A DNA stretch of 64,000 nucleotides from Marinobacter zhejiangensis (GTDB lineage: Bacteria; Pseudomonadota; Gammaproteobacteria; Pseudomonadales; Oleiphilaceae), in assembly GCF_900114775.1 (NCBI RefSeq), contig NZ_FOUE01000001.1:248001-312000 (forward strand), read 5' to 3'. Shown one piece after another: positions 54,974-58,831 of the stretch. The stretch's first letter is position 1; each line of letters opens with the position of its first letter. Under the pieces are notes generated by a model, which worked only from the letters and a program-made list of their open reading frames with translations, did not search any database and was not told where the DNA came from. Made by a program: the position numbers and the translations under genes.

Positions 54974-56104
54974 TCAGCGTCTGGAAAGTTGGTCAAGCAG
55001 AATGGAAGCCGCAACCGGCGTATAGCCATGGGCTTCGGCCACGCTTGGGTGTACCACCTGCCCACAACCGATGTTCAGGCCAGCCAGCAGGTGGGGGTCA
55101 TCTCTGAGTGCCGCCACCGGCCCTTTGTTGGCCAATGCCAGTACAAAGGGCAGGGTCGCATTGTTGAGCGCCATCGCGGAGGTTCGAGCTACAGCGCCAG
55201 GCATGTTGGCCACACAGTAGTGCACCACCCCCTCTTCTACAAAGGTGGGATCGGCATGGGTTGTTGGCCTGGAGGTTTCCCCACATCCTCCCTGGTCAAT
55301 GGCAACATCAACAAACACGCTACCTTCGGCCATCCGCCGTAACATGTCACGGGTCACCAGTTTTGGCGTCGATGCCCCGGGTACCAGCACAGCCCCCACG
55401 ACCAGGTCGGCATTGATTACCGCTTGTTCAAGGGCCTCCTGGGTGGAAAACAGGGTTTTTATACGGTTGCCGTAGACATGGTCAAGGTGACGTAGCACGC
55501 CCAGGTCGCGATCCAGCACGGTGACATCCGCCCCCATCCCGACCGCAATGGTTGTCGCGCTTCGCCCGACCACACCGCCTCCAATCACGGTGACCCGTGC
55601 GGCAGATACACCGGGGACACCACCGAGCAGCACCCCCCGACCGCCCATGGACTTTTCCAGGCAATAGGCGCCAGCCTGCACAGCCATGCGCCCGGCCACC
55701 TCCGACATCGGCGCCAGCAACGGCAAGTGTCCGAGTTCGTCAGTCACCGTCTCATAGGCAATACATAGGGCTCCAGACGCCACGAGCTCGTCAGTCTGAG
55801 GGCGGTCCGGAGCGAGGTGCAAATAGGTAAACAGGGTGTGGCTGGAGTTGAGCAGCCGACGTTCACTTGCCTGGGGCTCCTTCACCTTCACAATCATTTC
55901 GGCTCTGGCATAGACCTCATCAGCACCGTCGACCAATAACGCTCCCGCAGCGCCATAATCGGCATCGCTGAACCCGGTTCCAGCGCCTGCCATGGCTTCA
56001 ACCACAACCTGATGACCGTTGTGGCACAGTTCCCGGACCGAGGCCGGTATCAAGCCGACGCGGTATTCATGGTTCTTGATCTCCTTCGGAACGCCAATCA
56101 ACAT
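54974..56104 (-). CDS. ald: Alanine dehydrogenase
   Basis: NAD+-linked oxidative deamination of L-alanine to pyruvate and ammonia. The 376 residues start [20 protein letters not shown] as in the family; KVKEPQ holds the pyruvate-binding Lys, LHLAPD the catalytic His, and [22 protein letters not shown] the NAD site. GGGAGGT precedes the ATG. It heads a probable two-gene unit with GST. It may supply pyruvate and ammonia during growth on amino acids. Confidence 0.95.
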
Positions 56105-56126: not shown

Positions 56127-57944
56127 TTACCGCTCATCCAGATAAGATGGCACCCTGTCCCACAGTTCAGCAGACTCACGGATTTCCGACAACTGGTTCC
56201 ACATCAGCTCACAGAACTCCGGGTAACGGTCATAGAACCGCTTCGAAAACACCAGATAGGATGCCCCTTCCCCCAAATCGAGCGGAACCCGCTGGACACG
56301 CCCCCGGTAGCGTTCGTCCGCTGTCAGTAGCAGGTCCGCCAGCAGGTCGTAGTCCACAACCGCCTGGACCCGACCCCGGAGCAACATTTCAAACCGACTT
56401 TCCAGACGTGGGTTTTCGTAGACTTCAAGCCCCATGGCGCGCAAGCGCGCCGCCGCAGACGATGCCGTTGGCGCTAACACCGGCGATGGTAGCCAAGACG
56501 ATGTCGGCAGATCGTCTGGCTGCTCAGGGCTGAGCCGGTAGGTCGCCCAGTTCCAAAGCATCAATGCCCGCTCACGGTCCGGACGCCCCGGTTCACCGGG
56601 TAGACGACCAACCTCATCAAACAGCGCCGGATCGGTCACACTGACCAGCGCATCCACACCGCCCTGGCGAAGGCTGATTACCCCTCTCCGGCGGGGCTGT
56701 CGCACGTAGTCGATACGAATCCCCATTCGCTCTTCCGCGATCGCAAGGGCATCCACCAGCAACCCCGGTCGCGGTTGAACCAGCTCATCGCCACTCCCCA
56801 CCACCAAGGGAAACCGGGCCTCATCGGGCAGTACCAGGGTTAGAGCCTCGGGGCGGAAGGCCGAGTCAGTCAGCGCCTGCCAAAGCTCGGTATTCTCGTA
56901 ACCGGTTTCCGGATCGAGCACACCCAGGACGATCTTGCGTTCAGCCATCTCAAGGTGCCGCACCAACGCCTCACCCAACAACGGCCGGCTGTATTCATCA
57001 ATCGCCAGGCTCAAACCGCCCTGAGCAAGCCCCAGCATCTTGTGAGAGGCACTCCAGAGCCGGTAGCGCTCATTGATCAGCGAAACGTAGACCGCCTCAT
57101 CCAGACGTTTCACCGCCGAGGTCAACACGACGCCGGGGAAAAGCGCGTTCTGGTTGGCATCCACACCAATCACCAGCCGGCGCTGGCGCCCGGCTTCCGC
57201 CATCGCCCCCAGGCCACTTCGCCCAGCCACCGAAAACAGGACGTCCACACCGTCCGCGTATAACTCGGCAGCCAGCCTCGCCCCCTGATCAGGGTCATCC
57301 CAGGGCCGCCGGCTGTGCTTTGACAGGTACACCTCGTGAACGTCGATCGCTGGATTGATGAATCGGGCGCCGGCCTCAAACCCGCGACGGAACTCACGAA
57401 TAACGGATTGAGGTTGCGCCCCCATAAACCCGACATGACCCGAGGAACTGCGAGAGGCCGCCGCCATACCCGCCAGGAAAGCGACTTCCGCCTCCCGGAA
57501 CGCCACCGAATGGACGTTTGGCAGAGTCAGGATGTAATCGAGCGTGACAAAGGTGGTCGCCGGGTAACGAGGTGCAACAGCAAGCACCGCTGGTGTCGAA
57601 CTGCTGCTGGGGACCAGGATGGGGCTATAGCCCTGGCTGGCGATCGTCTCCAGCCGTTGCATACGTTGCTCCGGGTCGGCTCCGACGAAGCGGGTCACCG
57701 CAACATCATAGCGGTGTTCAAAGCGTTCAATACCTTCAATCAACTGGGCATTGAAACCGCTATCATCCAACGGGGCGCTGTTAAACAAAATCGCTGGACG
57801 GAACAGGGACAGGCCACTTGCCGGGACCTCCGCCGCCGGTGCCAAAGTTGTCGTCAGCAGCACTGTCAGCAAAACCGTCACCAGCCGCCGCAACGCCAAG
57901 TTCCGCTGCCGCCAACCTTCGATCCACCACCCCCAACCGTTCAC
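56127..57944 (-). CDS. Periplasmic fusion of a Bmp/PnrA-type and an SBP family 3-type binding domain
   Basis: The 605-residue protein starts with a signal peptide (about 15-38, ending APAA). Residues about 45-330 resemble the Bmp/Med basic membrane protein/PnrA nucleoside-binding domain (DSGFNAQLIEGIERF, GVDANQNALFPG, VVLTSAVKRLDEAVY). Residues about 350-600 resemble an extracellular solute-binding protein family 3 domain (LVVGSGDE, LLVDALAIAEERMGIRIDYV, GVDALVSVTDPA, GRVQAVVDYDLLADLLL). No membrane anchor, kinase, cyclase or transporter gene lies beside it. Start is GTG with AGGAG 8 nt upstream. It ends 22 nt before ald. Function unknown; a ligand-sensing or scavenging role is guessed. Confidence 0.82.
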   Translation of the reverse strand: MNGWGWWIEGWRQRNLALRRLVTVLLTVLLTTTLAPAAEVPASGLSLFRPAILFNSAPLDDSGFNAQLIEGIERFEHRYDVAVTRFVGADPEQRMQRLETIASQGYSPILVPSSSSTPAVLAVAPRYPATTFVTLDYILTLPNVHSVAFREAEVAFLAGMAAASRSSSGHVGFMGAQPQSVIREFRRGFEAGARFINPAIDVHEVYLSKHSRRPWDDPDQGARLAAELYADGVDVLFSVAGRSGLGAMAEAGRQRRLVIGVDANQNALFPGVVLTSAVKRLDEAVYVSLINERYRLWSASHKMLGLAQGGLSLAIDEYSRPLLGEALVRHLEMAERKIVLGVLDPETGYENTELWQALTDSAFRPEALTLVLPDEARFPLVVGSGDELVQPRPGLLVDALAIAEERMGIRIDYVRQPRRRGVISLRQGGVDALVSVTDPALFDEVGRLPGEPGRPDRERALMLWNWATYRLSPEQPDDLPTSSWLPSPVLAPTASSAAARLRAMGLEVYENPRLESRFEMLLRGRVQAVVDYDLLADLLLTADERYRGRVQRVPLDLGEGASYLVFSKRFYDRYPEFCELMWNQLSEIRESAELWDRVPSYLDER

Positions 57945-58033
57945 CCACTCAGCTCCTTTCCGTCACGCAGGCCAGAACCAGCTACTCTTACGTTACCACC
58001 CGTTAAATAAAACCCATGACCCGAGGGAATGCA

Positions 58034-58831
58034 ATGAAGCCCCATGCCCTGCTCCACCCCCTGATCGTGCTGGCAATCGCCCCTGCGCTGGTTCAAGCCG
58101 AGCTGCACACCGAGGAAATCAACTACCGGGTAGGCGATGATCAATTCACCGGCTACCTTGCTTACGATGACCAGATCAGCGGTCAGCGGCCCGGCATCCT
58201 GATCGTTCATGAGTGGTGGGGGCACAACGAGTTTGCCCGCCAGCAAGCGGAACGGCTCGCTACCGAGGGCTTCACCGCCTTTGCCCTGGATATGTACGGC
58301 AGTGGCAAGGTGGCCGACCATCCCGATAACGCCCGCCAGTTCATGCAGGCCGCCACGGAAAACAGCGACGTCATTCGCGAACGGTTCGAGGCAGCCATGC
58401 GGCTGCTTCAGGATCAGCCAACGGTGGATGCGAGCAAGATCGCTGCCCAGGGCTACTGCTTCGGTGGCGCAGTGGTCCTGAACATGGCGCGGATGGGGAT
58501 GGATCTGGCTGGTGTTGTTAGCATCCATGGCTCCCTGGCCAGCCCGATTCAGGCCGAACCCGGACGGGTCAAGGCACGGGTTCAGGTCTATACCGGCGGA
58601 GCAGACCAAATGGTTCCGGCCGACCAGGTCGCCGCGCTGGTTCATGAAATGCAGTCCGCGGGCGTTGATTTAACCCTGACCAGCTATCCCGGCGTGAAGC
58701 ATTCGTTCAGCAACCCGGACGCCGATGTCGTGGCCGAACGTTTTGGCATGCCCGTCGCCTATGACGAACAGGCTGCCGAGCGCACCTGGCGCGGCACCCT
58801 GGCCTTCTATCAGGAGCTGTTCGGGCGTTAA
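58034..58831 (+). CDS. Exported dienelactone hydrolase family protein
   Basis: The 265-residue alpha/beta hydrolase has a signal peptide (about 1-21, ending LVQA) and the dienelactone-hydrolase triad: Cys in GYCFGGAV, Asp in the GGADQMVP region and His in VKHSFSNPDAD. GILIVHEWWGHNEFARQQAERLA is the typical oxyanion part. Dienelactone hydrolases act in ring-cleavage pathways, but most secreted relatives have unknown esters as substrates. Start: ATG at 58034 with GAGGGA upstream is preferred over 58016. A terminator follows. Confidence 0.9.
   Translation: MKPHALLHPLIVLAIAPALVQAELHTEEINYRVGDDQFTGYLAYDDQISGQRPGILIVHEWWGHNEFARQQAERLATEGFTAFALDMYGSGKVADHPDNARQFMQAATENSDVIRERFEAAMRLLQDQPTVDASKIAAQGYCFGGAVVLNMARMGMDLAGVVSIHGSLASPIQAEPGRVKARVQVYTGGADQMVPADQVAALVHEMQSAGVDLTLTSYPGVKHSFSNPDADVVAERFGMPVAYDEQAAERTWRGTLAFYQELFGR

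Follow-up and report, generated by a model that had tools for sequence, protein, structure and literature searches.

An orphan periplasmic protein family joining a Bmp/PnrA-type and a type II binding-protein domain in Marinobacter zhejiangensis and its relatives

The gene and its predicted product

The window, by which we mean the whole analyzed stretch of 64,000 nucleotides from Marinobacter zhejiangensis, carries on its minus strand a gene for a two-domain periplasmic binding protein (56127..57944) that encodes 605 residues followed by a stop codon. The reading frame begins at a GTG codon, and a likely ribosome-binding site, GGAAAGGAG (57953..57961, minus strand), could be read in the sequence 8 nt upstream of this start. 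The initial annotation had described a single 605-residue frame that opens with one signal peptide and terminates after a second domain, and this description is confirmed, with the minus strand, which had not been given, now added. The next gene on this strand, after a gap of 22 nt, is ald for alanine dehydrogenase (54974..56104, minus strand). On the other side, a gene of the dienelactone hydrolase family, abbreviated DLH in the following, is located in divergent orientation (58016..58831, plus strand), with 71 nt separating it from the fusion's start.

The signal peptide covers residues 1 to about 38 (57831..57944, minus strand). It was recognized from hydropathy and the cysteine count, and its cleavage site was placed by eye: the N-terminus has a charged start and a hydrophobic run, which is then followed by the motif APAA. 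The only cysteine of the protein is C578, so that a count over the whole protein leaves no lipobox, and past the signal peptide no 19-residue window exceeds a hydropathy value of 1.3. As C578 is the sole cysteine and no hydrophobic segment follows the signal peptide, the mature protein is predicted to be soluble and periplasmic, without an anchor, and hydropathy thereby agrees with the earlier view that a membrane part is missing. The lipobox is a weak criterion in this respect, because Gram-negative soluble binding proteins likewise do without one.

Two binding-protein folds

The first domain comprises residues 47-347 (56904..57806, minus strand), as delimited by the Pfam family PF02608 and by VIA, and is assigned to the type I fold of the Bmp/PnrA nucleoside-binding type. 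PF02608 (Bmp) matches residues 52-319 with an E-value of 2.9e-47 and 161.6 bits at a cut-off of 24.1 bits, and the fusion copies of all seven genomes that carry the protein (described below) lie above this cut-off. The full-length AlphaFold model, which was calculated from a five-row alignment of the window protein and the relatives L033-L036, reached a mean pLDDT of 80.6 and a pTM of 0.78. In VIA comparisons, residues 47-347 gave Z-scores of 34.1 with Lbp in complex with guanosine (7x0r), 34.0 with PnrA in complex with inosine (2fqw), and 32.7 with BmpD in complex with adenosine. A Bmp/PnrA-like first domain, as originally proposed, is therefore supported by Pfam, AlphaFold and Foldseek/VIA alike. 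In its fold, the domain resembles the nucleoside binders of ABC importers PnrA/TmpC, BmpD, BmpA and Lbp (Z 32-34), it shares 24-30% sequence identity with Lbp, PnrA and BmpD, and it has most of the nucleoside pocket positions in common with them. Unlike the one-domain PnrA and Bmp proteins, however, the fusion protein possesses a second domain, is devoid of a lipobox, and could not be linked to an importer. PnrA and Bmp have been described as lipoproteins.

Two reports state that the base is sandwiched by Phe27 and Phe176 in BmpA and BmpD, that the second of these residues corresponds to Phe186 of PnrA, and that the ribose is bound via an Asp and a Lys in both proteins (PMC13325309, PMC7093131). 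We placed the pocket positions of the window protein via an alignment to PnrA, partly by eye, using the chain index plus 15 as PnrA numbering, an offset that agrees with Asp27, Ser28 and Phe186 of PnrA. In this placement the two sandwich phenylalanines map to F64 and W215, and F185, D262 and K279 occupy other pocket positions. Residue 64 is F or Y and residue 215 is W or F in the family, so that both positions are aromatic in all seven copies. K279 is present in every copy as well, and F185, D262 and D136 are each found in six of the seven, with single exchanges to L, to E and (in G066) to G, respectively. Since the aromatic sandwich has been preserved, as have most of the polar residues of the pocket, a nucleoside or a similar compound is likely to have remained the ligand of domain 1. 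A further study predicts sugars as ligands for most Bmp proteins, unlike what is seen in the nucleoside-bound structures (PMC9602780).

The second domain, residues 363-605 (56130..56858, minus strand), was assigned to the type II fold with likeness to SBP_bac_3 on the basis of the Pfam matches of relatives, AlphaFold, VIA and Foldseek. Pfam gave no match for residues 320-605 of the window protein itself. In a scan with SBP_bac_3 (PF00497, cut-off 26.4 bits) that took in the window protein and nine relatives, five of them stand-alone versions of the domain, the stand-alone proteins L016 (30.3 bits) and L018 (29.5 bits) passed, whereas the stand-alone L017, L019 and L020 and the fusion members L004, L009 and L008 remained below the cut-off (E 7e-6 to 0.009; 23.0, 21.2 and 16.3 bits for the three fusion members), and the fusion member L005 was not matched. 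As the domain of the window protein lies below the cut-off and stand-alone relatives pass it, we use the label SBP_bac_3-like. The claim of an SBP family 3-like second domain thus holds for the type II fold, but not at the level of the protein's own Pfam score.

When folded alone, the AlphaFold model of domain 2 has a pLDDT of 80.4. In the VIA comparison, 998 of the 1000 chains compared reached a Z-score of at least 8, and the best 50 rows lie between 15 and 19. The best value was found for VFT2 of BvgS (18.7), and further sensory proteins are the GluR0 ligand core (17.9), RmcA (17.1) and a histidine-kinase sensor (16.6). Plain transporter proteins appear here too, namely an engineered glutamine-binding protein (17.3) and TTC0807 (16.9), and since these are within 1-2 Z units of the sensory rows, the latter do not discriminate between the two classes. 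Foldseek also retrieved type II binding proteins (best E 4.4e-13), and a profile of 14 domain-2 sequences matched amino-acid binding proteins in the PDB with a best E-value of 4.3e-9. Both domains are thus upheld by structure prediction and Pfam as binding-protein folds, and these folds are unrelated to one another, as the initial annotation had stated.

Domain 2 agrees with GlnH, HisJ, the GluR0 ligand core and VFT2 of BvgS in its fold (Z 15-19) and probably also in the arginine of the carboxylate site. It differs from SBP_bac_3 proteins by its Pfam score below the cut-off, by its position behind a type I domain, and by the lack of an attached permease, channel or kinase. The arginine, R459, is found in all seven copies, and judged by eye it is situated where amino-acid binders have their arginine for the carboxylate, so that it is a candidate for this role. 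The position of the Asp that usually holds the amino group varies in domain 2, and the usual residue is not clearly present. From the invariant arginine at the likely carboxylate position we infer that domain 2 may bind a small carboxylate, for example an amino acid.

Distribution and genomic neighborhood

Seven of the 163 genomes searched from the GTDB family encode the two-domain protein, the genome of the window included; three carriers belong to the window's genus, three to a second genus and one to a third. A contig scan with profile A1 yielded 4 two-domain copies among the best 80 of 116 loci, the other 76 having the Bmp part only, and these copies come from M. xestospongiae (G133), M. 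maroccanus (G066), M. halodurans (G023) and the metagenome-assembled genome DOLZORAL124_50_18 (G002). The protein of G133 is 55% identical to that of the window, and the other five show 41 to 35% identity. This recurrence of the same architecture in six further genomes at 35-55% identity argues that the fusion is not due to chance. All seven copies end no more than about 35 residues past the domain-2 motif, and none of them contains a further domain, be it a kinase, GGDEF, MCP or other domain. With the A1 profile, no two-domain match outside the own genome was detected among 390 genomes of the order, 369 of the class and 398 of the phylum (samples that include the own genome, searched at E<=1e-30, 1e-60 and 1e-60, respectively, with up to three candidates scored per genome). 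Within 219 genomes of the phylum, PF02608 had at least 120 matches, 119 of which are in 49 genomes other than that of the window; five of these 119 are in open frames of more than 560 residues, and by eye these look like ordinary Bmp proteins at one end of the frame. Among the open-access papers listed by literature searches, no title or abstract opening described a bacterial fusion of a Bmp with a type II domain. We conclude that the fusion is a real, small and orphan protein family of two-headed binding proteins.

In a tree of 73 Bmp sequences, made up of the 7 fusion domains and 66 other Bmp sequences, the fusion domains form one clade (support 100/99) with a stem of 1.16 and long tips. Owing to a branch of 3.3 for the distant sequence L032 and a program warning about the meeting of long branches, we claim only the unity of the seven from this tree. 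This L032 (6277-7389) is a second, very divergent Bmp protein of G002, a genome whose three BPD_transp_2 matches are all on other contigs. The family search also detected the Bmp part alone in six genomes of the genus g5. By eye, three loci of this genus have the Bmp gene in an operon with genes for an ABC ATPase, permeases, a ribokinase-like and a nucleoside-hydrolase-like protein, and thus these relatives (L029-L031), unlike the fusion, are found in importer operons.

The patchy presence in 7 of 163 genomes could be taken as a sign that the fusion is a decaying or neutral domain shuffle, that is, an accidental joining without a function of its own. The fast-evolving branches in the Bmp tree point the same way, as does the lower conservation of domain 2, which shows 29-55% identity to the window protein compared to 41-59% for domain 1. 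We nevertheless consider this very improbable, given that an open frame, a start resembling a signal peptide and most pocket residues have been kept in seven genomes of three genera, and that the composition of the gene is that of its surroundings. Indeed, its G+C content is 0.614 as compared to 0.592 for the whole window, and the third-position G+C matches that of the neighbors. A recent foreign origin is likewise unsupported by these values.

The genes next to the fusion were compared between genomes. G133 has the same two neighbors as the window, with ald at a distance of 220 nt from the fusion. The window's genes were compared by tblastn with 13 DLH loci from other genomes of the genus (L179-L191), the best-scoring of 33 DLH matches outside the window's genome; of the remaining matches, the carrier G133 (L023) was read. 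The fusion is absent from all 13 loci, and it does not occur elsewhere in these 13 genomes at E<=1e-60. In five of them (L180, L184, L187, L190 and L191), ald is directly beside DLH without the fusion. Five others (L188, L179, L183, L185 and L186) lack ald and have gst or yip1 next to DLH, two (L181 and L189) show another context, and in L182 ald consists of two overlapping fragments between DLH and gst (2429-2688), apparently the remnant of a pseudogene. The pair of ald and DLH thus does not depend on the fusion for its presence at this site, and it reveals little about what the fusion does. The two neighbors named in the initial annotation are present, but the comparison with related genomes rejects them as functional clues.

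In the remaining carriers the surroundings vary. An SDR gene adjoins the fusion in G041 and G023, and in G035 a gene for an Hpt-REC-REC protein intervenes, which follows the fusion after about 82 nt in the same orientation (L025, 5955-7172) and is missing from the otherwise similar locus of G041. In M. halodurans (G023), genes for a REC-PAS-GGDEF-EAL-REC, a REC-HD and a REC protein are located upstream on the same strand (L026, 1763-7005), and about 790 nt separate the last of these receiver genes from the fusion. Other genes flank the fusion in G066, of which one side was read, and in G002. Signaling genes therefore occur near two of the seven copies only, those nearest to the fusion encoding receiver-domain proteins, and the other five copies, including that of the window, have no adjoining signaling gene. 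We regard this as suggestive: the neighborhood hints at signaling in two cases and is silent in five.

The lack of a constant neighbor in the seven genomes would fit a periplasmic scavenger or buffer that holds two ligands, nucleosides and amino acids, without any dedicated partner. Stand-alone relatives of domain 2 do not have a directly adjoining permease at six loci either, although an ABC ATPase/permease cluster is situated on the far side of a dioxygenase gene in L161 and L164. However, length, domain order and the C-terminal motif have been kept over 35-55% identity, which rather suggests a specific partner surface, and buffering nutrients with a protein of 605 residues would probably be costly. 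We therefore consider a mere scavenger to be clearly unlikely.

Possible partners of the protein

Binding proteins usually consist of one domain and serve one transporter. The main rival to the role that we propose below is transport, in which one or both domains feed an ABC transporter that is encoded elsewhere. Both folds are binding-protein folds of transporters, and the binding domains of GlnPQ as well as amino-acid binding proteins are among the best solved sequence relatives of domain 2. Most likely, a permease of the PAAT type would then dock domain 2, and the Bmp domain would provide an accessory ligand site, comparable to the situation in GlnPQ. The tandem binding domains of the GlnPQ type are joined to their permease, however, whereas the fusion protein is soluble. 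Neither an ABC operon nor an importer was found beside any of the seven copies, with G066 covered on the downstream side only, as the contig ends 313 nt before its copy begins; an operon of an iron-type ABC system, recognized by eye, is about 6.7 kb away in that genome on the other strand. The initial annotation had pointed out that its reading would fail if the same domain pair were commonly encoded beside a transporter operon, and this is not what the seven loci show.

An unlinked nucleoside importer was looked for with the nucleoside-ABC permease of the g5 relative L029. At E<=1e-3, this permease matched nothing in the window's genome (G000), in G133 or in G002, and in G066 it gave a partial match only (E 9.4e-4). 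Besides the fusion, PF02608 detected no Bmp protein in the window's genome, and the same is true for G133 and G066. A second, single-domain Bmp protein is present in G023, G035, G041 and G002, and the first three of these genomes also have matches to the permease (1.1e-41, 4.7e-43 and 1.6e-38, respectively), so that the fusion could dock there too. The window's genome further encodes seven BPD_transp_2 permeases in four systems. According to Pfam, two of these systems have a Peripla_BP_6 and one an ABC_sub_bind binding protein, and the fourth, in the urea cluster, has an open reading frame that resembles a binding protein by eye just upstream of the permease. As each system has its own binding protein nearby, none of the four is in want of one. 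The orphan status assigned by the initial annotation is thus borne out, as a nucleoside-type permease could not be matched and the BPD_transp_2 systems are already served. Domain 2 could nonetheless feed a permease of the BPD_transp_1 type, since the permease searches covered the nucleoside type and BPD_transp_2. Weighing these points, we think that transport by an unlinked ABC transporter is rather unlikely.

The reading that we prefer, with a confidence that falls somewhat short of even, is a co-receptor, in other words a protein that binds two ligands and signals to a membrane receptor whose gene lies elsewhere. In this proposal, domain 1 would bind a nucleoside-like ligand and domain 2 a small carboxylate, and binding would close one or both domains. 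The loaded protein might then dock on the periplasmic part of an unlinked histidine kinase, chemoreceptor or GGDEF/EAL protein, in the way LuxP docks on LuxQ or TorT on TorS, which would permit two nutrient signals to be read by one protein. We favor this because no importer was found, because the protein has no anchor and has diverged from transporter proteins, because signaling genes are near two copies, and because precedents exist. According to one publication, LuxP-LuxQ, TorT-TorS and XylFII-LytS are pairs in which a binding protein acts on a sensor kinase (PMC6321045). The proposed mode for the fusion protein, a soluble binding protein acting on a sensor kinase, is that of these pairs, with the difference that LuxP, TorT and XylFII are single-domain proteins whose kinase is known. 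Against the co-receptor stands that a fused kinase or cyclase does not occur in the relatives and that the sensory rows of the VIA comparison are close to those of transporters. The initial annotation had considered that the protein could be the extracellular half of a split receptor; this finds no direct support, since homologues with an attached kinase or GGDEF domain were not detected in the family, order, class or phylum samples.

The order of the two folds, type I followed by type II, is also that of the ectodomain of ionotropic glutamate receptors (iGluRs), in which the ATD precedes the LBD. Among the best 50 rows of a Foldseek search with the whole model, only iGluRs align over both domains, and they do so because type I precedes type II there too. 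These rows include GluD2 (5l2e, E 1.1e-13), GluK2, GluA2 and others, with identities of 8-12%. Over the whole chain, the TM-score normalized by the query is 0.26-0.31 and the rmsd 29-37 Å, and in contrast to iGluRs the fusion protein has neither channel segments nor a membrane helix, so that agreement is confined to the order and the single folds. The low TM-score, the high rmsd and the lack of a channel argue for an analogy of order, not for membership. A review traces the LBD and the ATD of iGluRs to bacterial binding proteins that were joined in separate fusion events (PMC3483616). It can be imagined that the fusion protein is a convergent, soluble bacterial counterpart of the iGluR ectodomain, with coupled type I (nucleoside) and type II (amino-acid-like) domains whose joint state would be passed to an unlinked sensor, but we give this a low probability.

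A soluble chain of a type I and a type II domain offers a modest model in which to ask how binding proteins may leave transport for a role in sensing, and whether two ligand sites in one chain communicate. As a soluble bacterial protein with the domain order of glutamate receptors, it lends itself to expression and analysis with no channel attached.

A minor observation concerns the stand-alone relatives of domain 2, which are proteins of about 270-300 residues. In five of the six loci their genes are found near a dioxygenase gene, L162 being the exception (L160, 7320-8126; L161, 8021-8842; L163, 7361-8257; L164, 7154-7963; L165, 6934-7767). The dioxygenase gene is about 3 kb away in L163 and directly adjoining in the other four. 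The enzyme encoded in L161 is a TauD according to Pfam (PF02668), and those of the other loci look alike by eye.
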